Shown: one piece after another, positions 9,859-30,666 of the stretch
Numbering within the stretch: position 1 is the first letter of the stretch
How the letters are laid out: each line of letters starts with the position of its first letter
Source: Pseudomonadales bacterium
Lineage (GTDB): Bacteria > Pseudomonadota > Gammaproteobacteria > Pseudomonadales > Azotimanducaceae
Assembly: GCA_022825925.1 (NCBI GenBank)
Contig: JAJDVW010000009.1
Coordinates: 1 to 43,515, forward strand
Direction of reading: 5' to 3'
Length of the DNA stretch: 43,515 nucleotides
Program-made: the position numbers and the translations under genes
Notes under the pieces: generated by a model
The model's database searches: none
What the model saw: only the letters and a program-made list of their open reading frames with translations
What the model was told of the DNA's origin: nothing

Positions 9859-11460
9859 CCTATCGCGCCCGCGTGGGAGGCGACCGCCCACGCCAATCTT
9901 CTCGACGTTCGACGTTACGTTTCAATCCACGCCCCCGAGTGGGAGGCGACCTTCGTCGGCGGCGGGCTGCTGCTCCTCACGGTGTTTCAATCCACGCCCC
10001 CGCGTGGGGACGACCCCTATCCCGCGCACACTATGTTGACCTCCCCATAGTTTCAATCCACGCCCCCGCGTAGGGGGCGACCGGCACGCCTACGGCGTTC
10101 CTGACGTACCAAACCGTTTCAATCCACGCCCCCGCGTAGGGGGCGACTGCAAATCACCGGCTGCACTTGGTGCCAATCGGGTTTCAATCCACGCCCCCGC
10201 GTAGGGGGCGACAAGCGTGATGGATGTCGCTGAGGTCCTGGCCAGGTTTCAATCCACGCCCCCGCGTAGGGGGCGACCGACGCCGCGATCGATCTGGTCG
10301 GCCAGGCGGCGTTTCAATCCACGCCCCCGCGTAGGGGGCGACCTGCGCGTTACGCGGAGCTGGAGCTGGCAGCGCAGTTTCAATCCACGCCCCCGCGTAG
10401 GGGGCGACCTGCGCCTTGTCGCGCTTACCCAGGCCCGACATGCGGTTTCAATCCACGCCCCCGCGTAGGGGGCGACCGCTGAGTCACGTCATCCTGTATC
10501 GGGCGGGGTGTTTCAATCCACGCCCCCGCGTAGGGGGCGACGCACTACATCGGTAGCGGCTCGGGTCGCTCCGGGTTTCAATCCACGCCCCCGCGTAGGG
10601 GGCGACGCAGGATCGGCGGACGGCAAAACACGAGTACCATGTTTCAATCCACGCCCCCGCGTAGGGGGCGACCCGGCCCCGCCGGCGAGAAGGGCGACCG
10701 CGGCGAGTTTCAATCCACGCCCCCGCGTAGGGGGCGACGGGATGCCGGCGCGCGATGAAGCCGCCCTTGACGTTTCAATCCACGCCCCCGCGTAGGGGGC
10801 GACCCGACGCTGATCGTGATGCCGCACAAGGTGCACGTGTTTCAATCCACGCCCCCGCGTAGGGGGCGACTTGCCGCCGCGATCGCGTTCAGCAGGCGTT
10901 CGACGTTTCAATCCACGCCCCCGCGTAGGGGGCGACTCATCGAGCGCGTCCAGCCACGCCTTCAACGTCTGGTTTCAATCCACGCCCCCGCGTAGGGGGC
11001 GACGCCGTCGCAGCACCTGGCCCCACCATCGCGCCCGTTTCAATCCACGCCCCCGCGTAGGGGGCGACGAGGCACAGCGTACCATGCTCCACAACGCCTA
11101 TGTTTCAATCCACGCCCCCGCGTAGGGGGCGACGTCGTTCGCTCCCGCCGTCCCCGGCTTCTCGAAGTTTCAATCCACGCCCCCGCGTAGGGGGCGACTT
11201 TCTACGCGCCACCCTATTTTCCCTCCACTTCGTTTCAATCCACGCCCCCGCGTAGGGGGCGACCTCGACGCTCAGCGTCGTCCCGTCCCCCCAGACGTTT
11301 CAATCCACGCCCCCGCGTAGGGGGCGACGTCATCATGCGGCTGACCGCGGAGATGGGCCTGCTGTTTCAATCCACGCCCCCGCGTAGGGGGCGACTTGTG
11401 GGTCTCCACTGGTATGGGTTGGTTCCGGGTTTCAATCCACGCCCCCGCGTAGGGGGCGAC
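9853..11460 (-). CRISPR. Type I-C CRISPR array, 24 repeats plus one degenerate outer repeat
   Basis: 24 repeats run from 9919 to 11460 with 23 spacers of 33-36 bases. The 32-base repeat, in the transcribed minus-strand sense, begins GTCGCCCCCTACGCGGG and ends CGTGGATTGAAAC, the classic I-C form, with a GCCCCC/GGGGGC hairpin. 22 repeats (10050 onward) are identical. The two leftmost (9919-9950 and 9984-10014, the latter 31 bases) carry changes in the hairpin half, and 9853-9884 looks like an eroded half-repeat set one spacer length further out. Decay at the left marks it as the old end, so the leader and newest spacers are at the right, next to cas2. Confidence 0.97.
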
Positions 11461-11641
11461 GCCGTGACTCTATCTGATTGTTAAGGAACGGCAAATCGGA
11501 GGGTGCACGCGAACCCCGCCGGAACGAGTCCACTGGGAGATCGTGCACGCCCAACAAGTCCGAGAAACTCCAACAGTAGCGTCGCTTTATGCAAGTTGCG
11601 AACCCACCGTGGAAATCACGTTCGCTTGAGGTTCGCGCGTC
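11461..11641 (-). promoter_or_regulatory. CRISPR leader
   Basis: 181 non-coding bases between the cas2 stop and the first repeat. In the transcribed sense the segment abutting the array reads CCTTAACAATCAGATAGAG, the most AT-rich part, followed by GTCACGGC and then the repeat. This is where leader promoter and integration-host-factor-type sites usually lie. Identity as leader follows from array polarity and cas2 adjacency. Confidence 0.7.
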
Positions 11642-11932
11642 TTAAACCACGAGTACGCCGTCTGGGTCGTAAGCGGGCTTGGCACCGACATGTTCAATGC
11701 GGCGCTTGCCTTCCGCTCCAAGCCGGTAGAACCTGAGGCTGTCCGTATCCGCATCGATCTCCTCGACGAGTCGCGCCCGAAGCATCGTCCATTGAGCGGG
11801 ATCAACCTGGCATTCGAACACCGAGTACTGCACGCGCTGCCCGAAGTCCGCACACAGGCGCGACACCCGACGGAGCCGGCGCCGACCGGCCGCGTCCGCG
11901 GTCGCGACATCGTAGGTAACGAGCATCAGCAC
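11642..11932 (-). CDS. cas2: CRISPR-associated endonuclease Cas2
   Basis: 96 aa, the usual Cas2 length in I-C systems. It has the beta1 motif LVTYDV with the conserved Asp, RRLRRVSRLCADFGQRVQYSVFEC and a C-terminal strand. With the Cas1 dimer it forms the spacer-integration complex. I prefer GTG 11932 (giving the family's M-x-M-LVTYDV opening) over ATG 11926; frames running further upstream only read into the inserted IS. An IS630 element has landed 11 bases upstream of that GTG and separates cas2 from cas1 and the operon promoter, so cas2 may depend on read-through of the IS. Confidence 0.9.
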   Translation of the reverse strand: MLMLVTYDVATADAAGRRRLRRVSRLCADFGQRVQYSVFECQVDPAQWTMLRARLVEEIDADTDSLRFYRLGAEGKRRIEHVGAKPAYDPDGVLVV

Positions 11933-11943
11933 AGGAGACTCTA

Positions 11944-13145
11944 GTGTTCTGTGCCACAAATGGATTGAATTAATGATTGGCCTCCTGCTTGGCCTCCTGG
12001 ATGTCCGCCAGTCGCTCCCTGGCGCGCTCGATCTTCGCCAGGATGTCCTCGCCGTTGGCGGTCCACCTGTAGGGCCGCGGATGGTCGTTGTGCGCGGCCA
12101 GGTGGCGCACGATCTCGCGCCGCAACGCGGCGACGCTGGCGAAGCTGCCGTCGCGGATCACGGCGGTCAGCTCGGCGAAGAAGCGCTCGACCAGGTTGAG
12201 CCAGGAACTCGACGTTGGCGTGAAGTGCATCTCGAACCGCGGGTGGCGGACCAGCCAGGCCCTGACGGCGGCGTGCTTGTGCGTGGCGTAGTTGTCGGCG
12301 ATGACGTGGATGGTCAACCCGTCCGGCGTCTCCGCGTCGATCTGCTTGAGGAAGCGCAGCCACTCGACGTGCGTGTGCTTGGCCTCGAGTCGCTGGATCA
12401 GCTTGCCGTCGAGATAGTTCATCGCCGCGAACAGCGTGATCGTGCAGTGCCGGATGTAGTCGTGCGTCGCGGTGCGGACGTGGCCGACGCCGAGCGGCAG
12501 GCCCGGTTGCGTGCGCTCCAGCGCCTGGATCTGCGTCTTCTCGTCGCAGCACAGCACGACGGAGCGCTCCGGCGGATCGAGATACAACCCGACGACGTCC
12601 CAGAACTTGGCCTCGAACCGCGGATCGTTCGACAGCTTGAAGGTGCGCTTGAGGTGCGGCTTGAGGCCGTGTTCGCGCCAGATGCGCCCCACGCTCGACG
12701 CCGAGATGCCGACCTCGGCCGCCGTGGTGCGCGTGCTGCGCCGCCGCATGCCGGGCGCGTCCTGGCCCGCCTTGGCCACCACCGCCTCGACCACCGCCGG
12801 CGCAATGGTCGCCTTGGCGCCGCGCCCCGCGCGGTCCGCCAGACCGTCCAGCCCCAGCCGCTCGAAGCGCTGCGACCACTTGTTGACCGACGTCGTCGAC
12901 ACGCCCACCGCCCGCGCCACGTCCGCCTGCTTCATCCCCTCGCCGCGCAGCAGCACGATGCGCGCCCGCACCACGTCCCGCGCCGTGGTGGTCGCCGCGC
13001 GAACCCGACGGTCGAGTTCCGCTTCCTCTTCCGCCGTCAGCTCCAAAACCGAAATGGGTCGCGCCATCGCATTCGTCTCCCAAAGGTCGACGGCCACCAT
13101 GGCACGGAACAATCATTAGTTCAACTTATTTATGGCTCAGGGCAC
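11944..13145 (-). mobile_element. IS630-family insertion sequence between cas1 and cas2
   Basis: About 1.2 kb bounded by TA dinucleotides at 11942-11943 and 13146-13147, the TA target duplication typical of the IS630/Tc1/mariner group. The terminal inverted repeats are imperfect: inward from the left end TGTTCTGTGCCACAAATGG, inward from the right end TGCCCTGAGCCATAAATAA, followed by matching TTGAAYTAATGATTG segments. One transposase gene fills it. The right-hand TA is part of the cas1 TAG stop codon, so neither cas gene lost coding sequence. Confidence 0.9.
11970..13067 (-). CDS. IS630-family transposase (DDE)
   Basis: 365 aa. An N-terminal helix-turn-helix (MKQADVARAVGVSTTSVNKW) is followed by a second winged HTH region and a DDE catalytic domain: first Asp in VVLCCDEKTQIQALER, second in HVIADNYATHK, and the acidic third residue in SSSWLNLVERFFAEL. 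The full-length frame and intact motifs suggest an active element. I chose ATG 13067 because GGGAG lies 9 bases upstream; a longer start at 13112 would begin in the terminal repeat region. Confidence 0.93.
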   Translation of the reverse strand: MARPISVLELTAEEEAELDRRVRAATTTARDVVRARIVLLRGEGMKQADVARAVGVSTTSVNKWSQRFERLGLDGLADRAGRGAKATIAPAVVEAVVAKAGQDAPGMRRRSTRTTAAEVGISASSVGRIWREHGLKPHLKRTFKLSNDPRFEAKFWDVVGLYLDPPERSVVLCCDEKTQIQALERTQPGLPLGVGHVRTATHDYIRHCTITLFAAMNYLDGKLIQRLEAKHTHVEWLRFLKQIDAETPDGLTIHVIADNYATHKHAAVRAWLVRHPRFEMHFTPTSSSWLNLVERFFAELTAVIRDGSFASVAALRREIVRHLAAHNDHPRPYRWTANGEDILAKIERARERLADIQEAKQEANH

Positions 13146-14185
13146 TAGCGCCAGAGGAACGGCGGGTATCCGTCGAGGTCGCCGCGCAGATGCCTTGCCA
13201 ACAGGTTGGCCTGTAGGAACGGGACGAGCCCAACGGTCGTCTTTTCGCGGAGGTAGGGATGCATGATCTCGTCCTTTTTCCGATCCTGGTAGGCGACCAA
13301 GACGGTCTTTCGAGCATTGTCTCGCATCGCGACCGCCCCGCTGAGCTGGGTCTCGAAATCTCCGGGACCGAGCTGGCGGCGATTCACCAGTGAGAGTGCC
13401 AGCCGGTCGGCGAGGATCGGGCGAAGCTCTTCCATCAGGTCGAGGGCCAGGCTGGGGCGCCCGGGCCGCTCCTTGTGGAGGAACCCCACAGCCGGGTCGA
13501 GGCCAACCGTCTCCAGCGCAGAGCGACAGTCATGCACCAGCAGCGTGTACAACAGCGACAACAACGCATTGATGGGGTCCAATGGCGGCCGGCGCGAGCG
13601 GCCGGCAAACGCAAATGCGTCCTCGTCCCGCCTTACAAGGTCACCGAAGACGGAGAAGTACAAGCGGGCCGCCTCTCCCTCTATACCACGCGTCGCATCC
13701 GTGTCCCGTGACTGGGCGGCGCGGCGTGCGGCGTCGCGCAGACGGATCTGGCAGCCGTTCAGCCGATCTTGCCAATCGGGGCCGCTCTTGGTCGCGTGGT
13801 CGCGTAACGCTCGACGCACCACCGTGCGCTGATTGTGCAACTTGCCCGTGACCACATGACTCGCGATGGCCGCTTCACTCGGAGAGTCGTCCGCGGCGCG
13901 GTATTGGGACCGACGCAGCAGCACGTTCCCCGACACCGGGCCTTCCATCCGGGCGAGAAAGCGCCCGTTCCGCCCGAGCATCGTGATGCAAACGCCCCGG
14001 TCGGCGCAGTGGCCCATCAGGGCGGGGGTGAGCCCAGTAGCCCCGAAGCACACCACGTCTCCGAGCAGATGAACGGGTACGCGCATGCGGTTCTTGCCGT
14101 CAACCTTCACCACGACGTTCTCGCCGTCCTTGTGGAGCCACGCGTCATGCGTCGTGACGTAGAGCGTGTTGAGGTGGCGTCGCAT
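13145..14185 (-). CDS. cas1: CRISPR-associated endonuclease Cas1, type I-C
   Basis: 346 aa, the normal length for I-C Cas1. It opens LNTLYVTTHDAWLHKDGENV, and the metal-site Glu in GIEGEAARLYFSVF and the later His in LVHDCRSALETVGLDPAVGFLH with Glu in DLMEELRP are in place. It integrates spacers with Cas2. The start is ATG 14185, 4 bases after the cas4 stop region. Its TAG stop (13147-13145) contains the TA target of the IS insertion; the first two bases of the stop come from the duplicated TA and the third from the flank or IS end, so the protein is unchanged. Confidence 0.93.
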   Translation of the reverse strand: MRRHLNTLYVTTHDAWLHKDGENVVVKVDGKNRMRVPVHLLGDVVCFGATGLTPALMGHCADRGVCITMLGRNGRFLARMEGPVSGNVLLRRSQYRAADDSPSEAAIASHVVTGKLHNQRTVVRRALRDHATKSGPDWQDRLNGCQIRLRDAARRAAQSRDTDATRGIEGEAARLYFSVFGDLVRRDEDAFAFAGRSRRPPLDPINALLSLLYTLLVHDCRSALETVGLDPAVGFLHKERPGRPSLALDLMEELRPILADRLALSLVNRRQLGPGDFETQLSGAVAMRDNARKTVLVAYQDRKKDEIMHPYLREKTTVGLVPFLQANLLARHLRGDLDGYPPFLWR

Positions 14186-14189
14186 GGGC

Positions 14190-14822
14190 TCAGGCGTCGA
14201 TTGCGGCCAACACCCATCGTTCGACGTGGCGCGAGCCGTCGCCGATCTCCGGCTGGCAGAGTTCCCGCAACGAACATGCGGCGCATTTGCGGGCCTCGAG
14301 TATCGGAGCCGGCGTGCGACCGCTCTGGAACAGAGCATGCGCGCGCTCCGCCACCTGCTCGGTGAGACCTCGCAACTCGCTACCGAAAAGGACCACCTGT
14401 CGGCGGCGAGTGCGTCCGTAGTACAGGGCGCCCTCGGGCACTACGGTGTCGAGCATCTCCTCCAAGCACATCCCCTGAGCGCACAACTGGACTTCGTCCG
14501 CTCGGTGCGCCTTCGGACTGCCACGTTTGTACTCCACCGGGTAGGGGCGACCGTCGTCGCGCAACTCGACGGCGTCGGCTATTCCAGTCAGGCCGAGGCG
14601 GTCCGAACGCAAGGGAACCGAGCGTCCGGTGGTCACCCCAAGCCGACGCTCGCGGCCCCCGGCATCGACTCTCTCGTGCAGCACGCGCCCCTCGGCCGTA
14701 AACGCGTTCTCGGCCCACTGCCGCTCATTGTGAATGAGCGCACACTGCCGCGGGCAATAGAGCATGTGCTGGAGAGCCGAAATCGGAATCGGCTCGTCGG
14801 GCGGGTGTGGCGGCGCACGCAT
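14190..14822 (-). CDS. cas4: CRISPR-associated exonuclease Cas4
   Basis: 210 aa RecB-family nuclease that trims prespacers and helps choose those with a PAM. An iron-sulphur cluster is indicated by the Cys in MLYCPRQCALIH and the C-terminal trio KCAACSLRELC. The nuclease core shows VEYKRG (Lys of the D-ExK motif) with Asp/Glu in GIADAVEL and the QLCAQGMCLEEM QxxxY-like helix. It sits between cas7 (13 bases) and cas1 (4 bases), the standard I-C order. Confidence 0.93.
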   Translation of the reverse strand: MRAPPHPPDEPIPISALQHMLYCPRQCALIHNERQWAENAFTAEGRVLHERVDAGGRERRLGVTTGRSVPLRSDRLGLTGIADAVELRDDGRPYPVEYKRGSPKAHRADEVQLCAQGMCLEEMLDTVVPEGALYYGRTRRRQVVLFGSELRGLTEQVAERAHALFQSGRTPAPILEARKCAACSLRELCQPEIGDGSRHVERWVLAAIDA

Positions 14823-14835
14823 CGCGGGGACTTCG

Positions 14836-15771
14836 TCAGATACGGTCGATCACCTCGATACCGGATGGCAGGTCGACCGTGTCGACGTGAACTGCGTAGT
14901 CGGCGTAGGCACGCGCGGGCGGGAGATTGTGCGCACTTCGGGCACCGGGATCGAATTCCTCCCCCTCAAAGACACGCTTGACCGATACGCGCTCGAAGAG
15001 CTTGTGTGCCTGGGCGTTCCCGAGCGCGCCGCGATGTTGAAACAGGATCAGCCTGCGCGCGGCCATCTCGCCACGTGCCGCCGAGCGGTCGTGATCGAAC
15101 ATTCCTTCGAGCGCCTGCCAAAGGACCGCGACATCCTCCTCGGAAAAGCCGGTCCCCCTCCCGTTCTGGCCCGCCAAGCTCGCGGAAACGTAACCGTGCG
15201 CCCGATACAGTCCGTAGGGCACGATGTGCTTGCGCCCCATGGTCCGGACATCCCCCTTCGCGTCCGCGTCCGCCTCGGTGGTGGCGGCCATTCTCGTGAT
15301 GGACACCTCCAGTGGCAGGATCGGCTCGATCGAGCGGGCAAAGGAAAACTGCACCGGGCCGCGCACCTGGCCGCAGTTCGCGCCCTTGGTGGACATCACC
15401 GCGCCGAACGTCCGCACGTCGAAGTAGTTGTCGCACATCCACCGCGTGATCTCCCGGGCCTTCGCCTCGTCCTTGGGGAGCTTCTCCCGGTCCTTGGTCG
15501 AGGCCTCGGGCACCACCGCGTCCCAGGCGCGCTTCTGCTTGATCTCGAGGATGCCGCGCTCCGTGACGAAGATGTCACAGCCGGGGACATCGCCCCGCGT
15601 CAGCGCCACGTAGTTGCGCACCTTCCGTTTCAGGCAGACGTCGGAAACAAGTCCCTGGTTGGTCTCCGGGTCCAGGCGCGGAAGGTTGCCCGCGTCGGGG
15701 TCCCCGTTGGGATTCCCGTTGGTTACGTCGAACAGGTAAACGAAGTCGTAGCGGTTCTGCAGTGCCGTCAT
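14836..15771 (-). CDS. cas7c: Cascade backbone protein Cas7c (Csd2)
   Basis: 311 aa, Cas7/Csd2 family RAMP protein that polymerises along the crRNA to form the I-C Cascade backbone. It has the hallmark opening [20 protein letters not shown], then [12 protein letters not shown] and the [33 protein letters not shown] and [11 protein letters not shown] segments. ATG 15771 lies 11 bases after the end of cas8c. The gene is intact, unlike the neighbouring cas8c. Confidence 0.95.
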
Positions 15772-15782
15772 GGTTCGTGCCT

Positions 15783-17458
15783 CTACGCGGTTTCGGTGTG
15801 AGCGTCGCTTGTCGGCGATGCGTCTGCCTTCCGCGCTCGCTGATGGTGGTAGCCGATCGCGAAGCGCCCCTGCTCCTCAAGCCGAAGGCTCCGGGGGAAG
15901 GCGTGGTCGATCCCCTCAAGCACAGCGTCGATTTCGCGGTCGAACCAATGGGCCAGCCCGCCCTTGTCCTTGCGCAGAGCCGCAAGGTGATGCGCCGAGT
16001 TGCGCTCGATGAGCGGGAGTATGGAAGCAGGCGTGGCCATCGCGGCCCCGAAGTAACGGTCCTTGATCGTGGCGTTGACCTGCCCCCCGAGCGCGGCGCG
16101 TTGCAGGTTCTCGTAGAGAGCGAACAGGCGTCCGAGGCGATAGGCGCGGCGCGCCTCCCGTTGACATCCTTGTCTGCCCGCATCCGCGTCACCACGGCCG
16201 CGAGAAGCGCTCGGGGATAGCGCACGCCGGTGAGCACCGCGCGCATCATCGCTCCACCGAGCAACGGGGGGATGTTGTCCGCGTTGTGTTGCGGCGCCGT
16301 CTCTCGCAGCAGGCTCCACAATGCGGGAGGTGCTCGCCAAGGCCACGGCTCGATGCGCAGGTCCTCCCAATGTTCGGCGACCCTCCGGGCTATTGCGCCG
16401 ATAGTGTCTTCGTGCCAGAAGCGTACGGATATCCTGGCTGCGTTGGGGGCGAGGCCCAGCACGAAGAAACGGGTGTCCTCGTGCAGATCGGGGCGCACCT
16501 GGGTCAACTCGCGACCCTCGGCGATTTTCTCGAGAACATCGGCCACCTCCACGGACTCCTCGGCATCCGACGGGGGCGGGGGATCCATGAGGTTCGAGAA
16601 CGTGGCCTCCGCCGCCGCAGCGGCACGCTCGCCCGCCGCGGCCCAGAACACGGTGGTCGTGTCGCCAATGAGGATGCTGCGTCCACTGTTGCGCGCCAGC
16701 ATGGTGTTGAGTGCCGTCGTGTAGGCGAAAGCCGCTGGCGCTGAAACGCGGGCGTTGTCGCCCTGCTTGTGCCCGAACGACTCGAAGGCGTCCAGATTGA
16801 ACGAAACGATGGAAGCCCCCGCCGTCTGCGCCCCGCGTACGCCCTTGATCTTCGCGTGTAGGCGCCGCACCGAGGCCCGACGACCCGTCACGAGGCAGAT
16901 TCCGGCCCCGGGCCCCGGCTCCGCGACGTGAGCATCCCACAAGCGCCGCGCCGCGGTGCCGTCGTGGAGAAGTTCCATCGCGCCATCCAGGCGGAACACT
17001 ACGTTGGCGTCCAACATCTCCGGGGCGTGGGGCAGGCCCGCGTACGCGTCGGGATCCCACGCATCCAGGAACGTCGCGAGCGCGGCAAGTCCCGCGTCCT
17101 CGGTTGCCGACAGCAACTCGGCGTGGAGGCGCTTGAAGGCGTCGTGCTCGCCCCGCCGCACGGGCACGGGGTTGGGTGTGGCGTCGTCTCGCGTCACGCC
17201 GAGGACGTAGCCTGTCTTGTCCCACAGGAAGTTCGGGGCGACGTTCGCGCTACGCACCACGGGCCGCGGCACGGCATGACGCGCCGGGCGCGGCATCCTC
17301 CCCGTGGTGTCCCTGATATCGGCAACATCGATGGCCACGCCGTCCGGCGAGAGCACAATAGCGAACGAGATCGGTTCGCGCGAATAGCCGTACTCCGGTG
17401 CTTCGCCTTCCTTCGCGAGGCGTTCGTACTGGTCCGTCAACGCCGCCAAGATGCTCAC
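15783..17458 (-). CDS. cas8c: Cascade large subunit Cas8c (Csd1), frameshifted
   Basis: Cas8c/Csd1 recognises the PAM and helps open the DNA. Starting at GTG 17458 (GTGA overlap with the cas5 stop) the frame reads [24 protein letters not shown] and [12 protein letters not shown] to [11 protein letters not shown], then loses homology. A second frame continues [20 protein letters not shown] to the end at 15783. The join lies at a GGG run (16157-16159); adding one G would restore a single ~558-aa protein, close to family length. The broken part is the C-terminal ~125 residues, where I-C systems also make the small subunit Cas11c from an internal start. Either a real inactivating deletion or a sequence error. 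Confidence 0.88.
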
Positions 17459-18126
17459 CCCTTCACCTCGTCGGAATCAGGATGGGGAACCTCCATGACC
17501 CCGTCGCGCAGGACGGCACGGAAGAAGCGCGGCGACATGGCCCGAGCGTAGTCGATGTCGTGCAGCATCCAGCCCAGATCGCGGTTGCGCTGATCCTCCG
17601 GCAGGCACGACGGCGGCGGGGTTCCGTCGAGGGACGCGAAGTGCGCGGCGAACTCCCGAGTGCCCAGATAGGGGCGGTGGAAACACTGTCCCGCAGAGGC
17701 CCGGCGGCTGAACATGGCGGCGAACTTCGCTTCGGTGTCTTCTTCTCCAGCGACCGATGTCGGCGCGAAATGCGCCTCGATCACGTAACCGACATCGCGC
17801 AGCAGCGTGGTCGCACGCTGCTGCCGGTCGTCTTCAATGACGGCGTGCAGATCATCGGTGGTTCCTGCCCGCATGGCTTTGCGGACGTTATCCGCCGAGG
17901 CCCGGTGCCCCAGTTCGTTACGACGCAGGTTCTCGAAACGAATGGGCTTCAGCACATGAATGCGGTCGACGATCCACCGGATGGCGGGCTTCCAGAGCAC
18001 GGCTTCGAGAATCCCCCGCGCCGCAGAGGGCGTCATCACATCGTAGGACACGCGCTCCACCTTCATTTCCGGCCGCGTGAAGCAAGCGTAGTCCCCCCAC
18101 ACGTGGAGCTGCGCTCCGTAAGGCAT
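17455..18126 (-). CDS. cas5c: Cas5c (Cas5d) crRNA-processing endoribonuclease
   Basis: 223 aa. In I-C systems Cas5 replaces Cas6 and cuts pre-crRNA at the repeat hairpin. The opening YGAQLHVWGDYACFTRPEMKVERVSYDVMTPSAARGILEA is the family signature, with the Tyr/Lys/His region used for cleavage in FTRPEMKVER. Later come PIRFENLRRNE and QQRATTLLRDVGYVIEAHF. I chose ATG 18126; a longer frame to 18210 would overlap the end of cas3 by non-conserved residues. It ends in a GTGA overlap with cas8c. Confidence 0.93.
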   Translation of the reverse strand: MPYGAQLHVWGDYACFTRPEMKVERVSYDVMTPSAARGILEAVLWKPAIRWIVDRIHVLKPIRFENLRRNELGHRASADNVRKAMRAGTTDDLHAVIEDDRQQRATTLLRDVGYVIEAHFAPTSVAGEEDTEAKFAAMFSRRASAGQCFHRPYLGTREFAAHFASLDGTPPPSCLPEDQRNRDLGWMLHDIDYARAMSPRFFRAVLRDGVMEVPHPDSDEVKG

Positions 18127-18164
18127 CCCGTTCCCTCCAAGCCCTCCGCAAGTTCCCACCGGAC

Positions 18165-20407
18165 TTAGGATATCAGCCCTTCGGCAGTGCGGAAGGTAGG
18201 GTCGTCCCACCGAAGGCCGATCTCGTCGTCATAAAGGTCGCCGTTGACCACCCAGACGAACTGGCGCTCGAAACGTTCCTCCTGCAAGACTTCCGCCGCG
18301 CCCGCAGCGATGAGCGCTTCGCGCGCCTGTCGCGGGACCTGCACCAGGTACGGCTGCAACCGACGCGCGATGCGGCCGGGGCGCTCGGCGTAACGCAGTG
18401 CGTCCACCAGTGCCCCCGGCCCCTCGTCCGGAGTGCCGTTCGTGTACGGCACGATGACCGGGACCAACGGCGTCTCGATCAGGCGAAACTCCCGCGCCAC
18501 GGTTTCGAACGGAAAGTCGAGGGTGCGCGCGCGCTCGTTGTGCGCCCGCAGGATTCGCTTGGCGTCGAGAGCTTCATCTCGCTTCGTCCAATACAGCTCC
18601 CGAAAGTACGCGTCGACGGCATCCAGCGACTGCAGGTCCTCGTGCTGGCGCGCCACGGACCGCATGATGTCGCCGGACTGGGCGACCTCCGGCGGGGGCA
18701 CGCGCCCGTCGCCCTCCGCAGGCTGGAAGACGAACACATCCGCCGTTGCCACGCGGCCTTCGCGATTGCAGCGCCCGGCCGCCTGCACGAGCGACTCGAG
18801 GCCGGCCTCCGCGCGCCAGACCTCCGGAAAATCGATGTCCACGCCAGCCTCGATCAGGGAGGTGGCGACCAAGCGCACCGCAGCACCGGCGGTCAGTGCA
18901 TTACGCATCTCCGCAAGCCTGACCCGACGATGCGCCGCGCACATGAGCGTAGTGAGATGACGCGCCCCCTCGCCGTCGGCGATCATCTCGAACAACTCGC
19001 GTGCGTGCCAGCGCGTGTTCACGATGCAGAGCACCTGTGCTGAACCTCGCAGCCGGCGCGCGAGCGCGGCGTCGTCCATCTCGCCCATGTGCCTGATCCG
19101 CGTCCGCTTCAGCGTCCGGTAGAGTGCGGGCGGATCCGGGGCAAGCTCCCGGACGTTGGTGAACCCACCACGGAACTTCCCGTCGGCGAGGGCGGGCTGC
19201 GTTGCCGTGCAGAGCACCACGCTGGTTCGCCAGTTGCGCGCGAGCTCGTCGAGGGCGGCCACGCACGGCCGCAGATACCTGGCGGGCAGCGTCTGTGCCT
19301 CGTCGAGCACGACGACGCTGTTCGCGACGTTGTGCAGCTTGCGGCACCGGGACGGACGGTTGGAGAACAAGCTCTCGAAGAACTGCACCGCGGTCGTGAC
19401 CACGACCGGGGCGTCCCAGTTCTCCATCGTGAGGTGCAGCTTCGCGGCGCCCTCCCGGCCGGAGAGCCGCTCCTCGTCAATGCTGCTATGGTGCTCGACG
19501 ATGAAGGCCGCGTCTCCATCGCCGGGTTCGGCCAACGCGTCGCGGAACACGGCAGCGGTCTGCTCCACGATGCTCATGTAGGGGATGACGTAGATGACGC
19601 GATGGAGACCGTGCCGAACCGCGTGCTCAAGCGCGAAGGCCAACGACGCGAGCGTCTTCCCCCCGCCAGTCGGAACGGTCAACGTGAAGACTCCCGGTGT
19701 TGCGTCGGCCATGCCGCGTGCATGGCGAAGAATGCGGGCGCGGATTTCGTTCAGGGGGTTGGCGCGGCGGCGCGCAGGAGAGCGTTCAGGTGCGTCGTGA
19801 GACGCGTCGCGAGGTCAACGCTGGCGGGGTGGCCACCGCGTACGCGCTTCTTCCCCGCAAGGCGATCATGGTACTCCTCCGTGTCTAGGCGGTCGGCGTC
19901 CACCAGCGCCGAGAAGATCATCCGTATCCAGAAGGCAATCGAAAACCCGCTCCCGTCGTGGCCCCGCACCCGCCACTTCGGAAGGGCGACGTTCCCGAGT
20001 TCGATCTCGTCCCGCCACGCGTCGTCGAGCGCGGGGACCTCGCGTTCAAGCCGCTCGGCCAGCGAGCTGGTTCGGAGACCGTTGACGCCGTTCGCGAGTC
20101 CCGCATGGTGCCCGGCTATGCAGAACGCGAGCATCTTCCCGAGCCGGTCGCCGTAACGCTCTACCGCCACCTTCGCTCCCGCCGTCGAGTGGTTGCACGG
20201 CGGACCGCCCCGCAGACGTGCCTGGAACTCCGGCGTGTACTTCCCCAGGTCGTGTAGCAGCCCGGCGACGCGCCCCAGGTCCGCCCCGCCGACATCCGCC
20301 AGGAAACCCCCAGCCCGCGCGCCCGTGCCCTCGAGGTGTTCGACCAGCGGATGCCAGTCCTCCTGGCCCGCCGAGCCGCCGCTATGCGCGAAGTGCCTGG
20401 AACCCAT
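18165..20407 (-). CDS. cas3: Cas3 nuclease-helicase, type I-C, frameshifted between HD and helicase parts
   Basis: The target-shredding nuclease/helicase recruited by Cascade. The HD part starts at ATG 20407 (FAHSGGSAGQEDWHPLVEHL; HD in LLHDLGKYTPEF; later AGHHAGL) but stops at 19751. The helicase part continues in another frame from PLNEIRARILRHARGMADATPG with Walker A TVPTGGGKTLASL, DEAQ box VVLDEAQTLP, TATQP, and motif VI QAAGRCNREGR, ending at 18165. One extra base near the CC-AACCCCC run (about 19754-19765) would join them into ~747 aa, normal for I-C Cas3. Two separate proteins could in principle still be made, but an internal ATG 19712 lacks a clear ribosome site. Confidence 0.9.
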
Positions 20408-20522
20408 GCCATCCTCGCCGGCAATCAACTGATTCGTGCCGATGTACCTATGCCGAAGTCGGCCGGCCCCGGCGTCGATAGCCCCAACAATGCCGGGACG
20501 CACATCTCCACCGGATAAGCGC

Positions 20523-30463: not shown

Positions 30464-30666
30464 TCGGGGCGGCTATATATGCTTCTGCCGAATCGGTCGG
30501 TGGCCGGCTTGGAGATTTCCCTTGAATTCTGCTAGGTTACGCGCCCCGCACGCGGCGTAGGCCGCGTCCCGAAAGCGCCTCCGAGCGCCGACGCCAGCCG
30601 ACCTGAGCGACCTGAGATGCACCGTCCGTCGCACCCCATCGCAACCGCCGGAGCGGAACGCACTCC

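Follow-up and report, generated by a model that had tools for sequence, protein, structure and literature searches.

The window, by which we mean the whole 43,515-nucleotide (43.5-kb) stretch of DNA analysed here, carries on its minus strand a type I-C CRISPR locus that reads cas3, cas5c, cas8c, cas7, cas4, cas1, cas2 and then the array (Table 1). Cas1c, Cas2, Cas4, Cas5c and Cas7 form a single run adjoining the array, in agreement with assignment to type I-C. Between cas1 and cas2 lies an IS630-family insertion sequence, and two genes of the interference machinery, cas3 and cas8c, are broken in the assembly.

Table 1. Features of the type I-C locus and its insertion sequence (positions in the window)
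Feature	Position	Strand	Evidence or remark
CRISPR array, 24 repeats of 32 nt, 22 identical	9919-11460	-	repeat search
cas2, complete, GTG start	11642-11932	-	ORF and family match
TA target duplication, cas2 side, within CTAG 11941-11944	11942-11943	.	sequence
IS630-family insertion sequence, 1,202 bp, transposase co-directional with cas genes	11944-13145	-	ends, inverted repeats, transposase
Terminal inverted repeat, cas2-side end	11944-11979	+	alignment of ends
IS630 transposase, 365 aa, DDE_3 (PF13358) and helix-turn-helix domains	11970-13067	-	ORF and family match
Terminal inverted repeat, cas1-side end; terminal G completes cas1 stop codon	13111-13145	-	alignment of ends
cas1 (type I-C, Cas1c), complete	13145-14185	-	TIGR03640, 510 bits (cut-off 385); solved relatives 8d3l, 8d3p
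TA target duplication, cas1 side, first two bases of cas1 TAG, within CTAG 13145-13148	13146-13147	.	sequence
cas4, complete ORF	14190-14822	-	TIGR00372
cas7 (Csd2), complete ORF	14836-15771	-	TIGR02589
cas8c (Csd1), broken	15798-17458	-	91-base loss at ~16146 relative to four aligned relatives
cas5c, complete ORF	17455-18210	-	TIGR01876
cas3, split: HD part 19751-20503, helicase part 18165-19712	18165-20503	-	two different frames

The identical repeats of the array are all those on the cas2 side. The two farthest from cas2 (9919-10014) are degenerate; such repeats are common where an array is oldest. No spacer has a near-exact match elsewhere in the assembly, the best matches being one of 54 bases at 78%, part of it repeat, and one of 34 bases at 85%, which covers one whole spacer. 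The search for spacer targets gave one weak phage match, in four pieces, and a 27-base piece of one leader-side spacer, the sole spacer scanned against viral contigs, had no exact match there.

The transposase matches the NCBIfam model transpos_IS630 (NF033545) over positions 2-299 of 299 with 252 bits (cut-off 100), and its open reading frame and both ends of the element are intact at the sequence level. The ends are imperfect inverted repeats in which 26 of 34 positions match, the TA included. When all nearby TA pairs were searched this same pair was chosen, the next best reaching 16 matches; the local alignment of the ends scored 32, a value that none of 2000 random window pairs attained (maximum 30). 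A sequence-only reading of this DNA had named an IS630 element with these ends and with TA duplications at their outer edges; family membership and ends are borne out by the matches above, and both TA copies can be read directly, each inside a CTAG. The element thus has a DDE transposase, terminal inverted repeats, a TA duplication and, as described below, a preference for CTAG targets like that of the Shigella IS630, all in keeping with membership of the IS630 family. Among the matches listed in the assembly (40 of 240 candidates scored) there is no second full-length copy, and the nearest copy in 200 genomes (L037) has 81% DNA identity; of 903 plasmid records 25 were listed, and those of their transposases that have a name are ISPsy32-like, with 56-58% identity across 86-87% of the query. 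Judged by these comparisons, the element is a lineage of its own within the IS630 family.

When the flanks are joined in silico with a single TA, the junction reads CGC-TAG-AGTCTCCT-GTG, with eight bases between the cas1 stop and the cas2 start, so that the join expected from the sequence-only reading is reproduced by computation. The empty site that it predicted is found in five relatives (L007-L011), in which the cas1 TAG is followed after 6 to 11 bases by cas2; all five belong to the same family as the window and two share its genus (G006, G096). The same reading took the right TA to be that of the cas1 stop codon, which holds for the TA, with one correction: only this TA and the C preceding it are cas1's own, while the third base of the stop (G, position 13145) belongs to the element. 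The element has G as its first base on either strand and CTAG is a palindrome, so that insertion restores a CTAG at each flank; cas1 survives because the element's first base rebuilds its TAG. On the other side, the duplicated TA preserves the native bases upstream of cas2 from the TA onward. Both adaptation proteins are full length, as had been claimed, with complete frames and family matches. The notion that the two ends came together by chance, and not through one transposition event, we put close to nil: the inverted repeats, the TA duplication, the full-length transposase and the five empty sites are in accord with one another, the empty sites in L007-L011 refute it, and nothing was found in its favour.

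To our survey of Cas1c-like loci the window is the sole exception in gene order. In all 58 other loci that are readable to the end of cas1, cas2 follows directly (51 by motif within 103 bp, 7 by tblastn), and only the window is split. The survey comprised 59 loci drawn from searches at family, order and phylum level, one of which (L198) ends inside cas1. At most 30 loci were taken from each search, so that one of them is represented by its higher-scoring matches. Another search contributed 10 of its 30 loci, namely those with Cas1 at least 40% identical, minus the window and its own-genome relic, while the 20 outside the survey mostly had Cas1 31-37% identical. Three loci (L153, L165, L175) were dropped as the window itself or duplicates. 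Six of the 58 (L174, L199-L203) score below the cut-off of the I-C model, and most of the 10 were not scored against that model. A Cas1 scan of genome contigs confirmed no relative.

Why the element sits at this position is best approached through its relatives. The set held 55 element loci, of which 11 (cut or partial) were left out of end testing, leaving 45 elements (44 relatives and the window). Sixteen of these were not counted, 15 with an end score below 20 and one (L116) dropped by hand since two offset pairs were nearly tied (27 and 26). Of the 28 relatives with resolved ends, 23 are flanked by CTAG at either end, or 24 of 29 once the window is counted; of the 2995 TAs in the DNA flanking these 29 elements, by comparison, 93 (3%) belong to a CTAG. 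Seventeen of the 28 come from one genome (Synoicihabitans), so that they count as separate insertions and not as separate lineages; CTAG flanks both sides in 14 of these 17 and in 9 of the 11 found elsewhere. The sites occupied by these relatives lead us to infer that the transposase prefers CTAG, and the target, not the function of cas1, is therefore the likely reason for the site. The genome in question, Candidatus Synoicihabitans palmerolidicus, contains 28 loci among L096-L129 that are diverged copies of a related IS630 element, and these copies form a natural set for studying target choice.

The target itself is scarce in the window, which is GC-rich and holds CTAG six times, two of these being the flanks of the element. 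It was created at the end of cas1 by the last sense codon, CGC, together with TAG, and a CTAG at the cas1 stop occurs in the window only, in none of the 58 other loci compared. Beyond CTAG, we find no clear enrichment for stop codons: of 56 strand-specific insertion sites, 11 lie at the end of an open frame of at least 100 codons, as do 22 of the 173 other CTAGs in the flanking DNA. As a separate observation, the CTAG at 30532-30535 is the TAG end of a 697-codon minus-strand frame with no Pfam match, and a plus-strand frame at the same place resembles a coding frame more than this minus-strand one does.

A 1991 study by Tenzen and Ohtsubo, to go by its title, reportedly concerns the CTAG target sequence of IS630. 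The window element is like the Shigella IS630 and ISPsy32-like elements in transposase family, inverted repeats, TA duplication and insertion into CTAG. The available text of one paper gives CTAG as the target of IS630 (PMC6811581), and that of another describes a bacterial IS630-family element that moves by cut and paste into TA, with duplication of the TA (PMC2170065). In the accessible part of their report, Sheng et al. (2023) describe 163 natural insertions of insertion sequences into cas genes (PMC10359306); our case resembles those presented there in having an insertion sequence with a target duplication in a CRISPR-Cas gene cluster, and differs in that the element lies between two cas genes, neither of them broken, with the probable inactivation located in cas3 and cas8c. 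An insertion sequence disrupting a cas coding sequence is not what we see here, as the cas1 and cas2 frames are complete. In the portions of the literature that were searched and accessible we found no report of an insertion sequence between cas1 and cas2, or of an IS630 element rebuilding a stop codon, which is not proof of absence.

The insertion moves the cas1 stop 1.2 kb away from cas2. In the five relatives the cas2 Shine-Dalgarno sequence overlaps the cas1 stop (TAGGAG and similar) and its predicted pairing with the 16S tail is -5.6 to -7.3 kcal/mol, as against -2.4 kcal/mol in the window. This weak site suggests reliance on translational coupling with cas1: lying eight bases past the cas1 stop, it would have been served by re-initiation of ribosomes leaving cas1. 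Loss of stop-start coupling across the 8-nt gap is thus a plausible cause of lower Cas2 translation, and with it of the reduced Cas2 supply that the sequence-only reading had raised. Transcription is a different matter, since the transposase gene is co-directional with its neighbours and a consensus scan of 11500-13300 found no terminator-like site, from which read-through from cas1 through the transposase gene into cas2 is predicted. Read-through transcription combined with weaker translation of cas2 is the reading that we prefer on the strength of these sequence features.

Two other accounts of cas2 expression need to be weighed against it. In the first, the insertion is neutral: cas1, the transposase gene and cas2 are co-transcribed, enough Cas2 is made and spacers are still acquired. 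We regard this as possible, though the lesser prospect. The three genes run in the same direction with gaps of just 77 bp (cas1 to transposase) and 37 bp (transposase to the cas2 GTG) and with no terminator-like site between them, there are few changes at conserved columns of cas1, cas2 and cas4, and the 22 identical repeats of the array all lie on the cas2 side. Against neutrality stand the weak Shine-Dalgarno sequence, which points to an earlier reliance on coupling, and the broken interference genes of the assembly, with which acquisition would give no protection from the I-C locus alone. In the second account the element supplies a promoter for cas2, as the sequence-only reading had suggested, and uncouples the gene from the cas operon. 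Outward promoters are known for other insertion sequences; in 11500-13300, however, a consensus scan found no sigma-70-like site at all (0.3 on average in shuffled sequences), and we consider such a promoter decidedly improbable.

A hairpin between the end of the element and the start of cas2 was also entertained as a cause and rejected. In 6 of 6 sequence contexts the prediction shows a cas2 start more closed when the element is present than when it is absent, the difference being 0.1 to 3.6 kcal/mol; however, 27% of random upstream sequences close it as well, and the local fold is ordinary (z -0.12). Separately, an in-frame TTG at 11959, within the end of the element (11944-11959), could extend Cas2 by 9 residues.

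The sequence-only reading, correct about the element, overlooked the breaks in cas3 and cas8c. Both genes are single frames in 5 of 5 relatives compared. In the five relatives cas3 is one open frame of 759 to 776 codons; in the window its HD and helicase parts lie in different frames, with the break within 19713-19775 and placed by alignment at a single base within a run of C. Cas3 function need not be lost through the split, because a possible start is present in each part, Cas3 proteins can be short (P0002, the nearest database relative of the helicase part among the best 120 matches, has 541 aa), and there are other systems in which two proteins make up Cas3. In cas8c, 91 bases present in 4 of 4 aligned relatives are missing and the frame is shifted. 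These bases hold the internal start of Cas11c in L069-L072 (MSLN or VSLN, from ATG or GTG), which aligns with the first residues of the solved Cas11 chains 7kha_K and 9jhb_B. The shifted frame of the window has no start codon between 16199 and the conserved AYRLGRLF; it is open from 17225, so that starts exist far upstream and none beside the Cas11c part. In type I-C systems Cas11c is internally translated, according to the available part of PMC7684278; the window locus shares the gene set and order of the systems described there, and unlike them lacks the Cas11c start, with its Cas8c frame broken across it. An intact Cas8c with an internal Cas11c start and a single-frame Cas3 are thus both wanting in the window, which weakens any claim of a working I-C system and leaves the assignment to the subtype by descent as it is.

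It may be objected that both breaks are errors of sequencing or assembly and that the insertion is the sole real change in an otherwise working system. The assembly is a draft of 182 contigs with 5.7% contamination, and a sequencing error could account for the cas3 break, which concerns one base within a run of C, as a misassembly could for the 91-bp loss in cas8c. We nonetheless think this explanation unlikely. Ninety-one missing bases are unlike the usual base-calling error, and among 20 further open reading frames of the window that were scanned no family match is divided between neighbouring frames, a control to which 10 of the 20 contribute nothing, having no match, and in which the match of one (DUF5916) spans only 98 of the 572 positions of its model. 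Moreover, the helicase open reading frame is recorded on two contigs (P0001), which may mean that a second record has the cas3 break too, and the same assembly holds another, heavily broken I-C locus. Apart from the window's own helicase frame, there were no strain-level relatives for cas3 or cas8c among the best 120 matches of each protein search.

If the assembly is right, interference is probably dead, because there is no intact Cas8c C-terminus or Cas11c and no single-frame Cas3; the predicted loss of interference would follow from these breaks, and spacer acquisition would then probably give no immunity from the I-C locus alone. With cas3 and cas8c frames broken, the locus is probably decaying. 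At columns otherwise invariant in the five relatives, changes in the window fall on 5 of 258 positions in cas1, cas2 and cas4 and on 38 of 700 in the interference genes (p=0.021), and by these few changes the adaptation genes look constrained. The same test shows a similar ratio in L071, whose genes are intact (2/255 versus 18/680, p=0.12), and the pattern therefore neither settles decay nor proves different selection; L069, L070 and L072 show no difference (p 0.85, 0.58 and 0.79). It is also conceivable that interference was lost while cas4, cas1, cas2 and the array are selected as a DNA recorder, the element acting as a removable brake on the supply of Cas2. In that event the loss of the internal Cas11c start would be the key blow to interference. 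We give such an adaptation-only locus very little credence.

Taken together, these observations make it likely, in our judgement, that an IS630-family element entered the CTAG at the cas1 stop with both frames kept, that translation of cas2 is probably lowered as a result, and that the locus, with its broken cas3 and cas8c, is probably decaying. In the sequence of events that we propose, the transposase would have picked the CTAG formed by CGC and TAG at the end of cas1; insertion left CTAG at both flanks, cas1 keeping its TAG and cas2 its bases from the TA on, as the sequence itself attests; transcription would pass from cas1 through the transposase gene to cas2; and cas2, deprived of stop-start re-initiation, would yield less Cas2. 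We see here an ordinary insertion of an IS630 element into its usual target, within a CRISPR locus that is probably degenerating. The case stands out because the element lies between cas1 and cas2 without breaking either frame, and because this coincides with a lost Cas11c start. The case shows a CTAG-targeting element landing on a TAG stop with both genes left readable since its first base restores the codon, and it catches a CRISPR locus at a stage when its acquisition genes seem to be outlasting those of the effector; neither point alters, in kind, what is known of IS630 or CRISPR. Filled and empty cas1-cas2 junctions do provide a natural pair for testing whether stop-start coupling sets Cas2 levels.

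Two further CRISPR loci are present in the assembly. The second I-C locus, on contig C154 (L074, L150, L151; G000:C154 44000-70000), is heavily decayed: the HD part of cas3 lies in two frames, cas5 is a stub, cas8 is in fragments, cas7 and cas4 are each in two frames and half a cas1 is left, with no match to cas2 and no array in the stretches searched. Contig C49 (L149 1-10600) carries a type I-E locus in which all eight cas genes are matched, with an adjoining array of at least 26 repeats; its Cas5e is matched over only 179 of 230 model positions, and its Cas3 falls below the cut-off of the best model and above that of the Cas3 core. Because contamination of the bin is 5.7%, C49 and C154 may come from another cell. 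If C49 does belong to the same cell, its I-E system would lower the cost of losing the I-C system.
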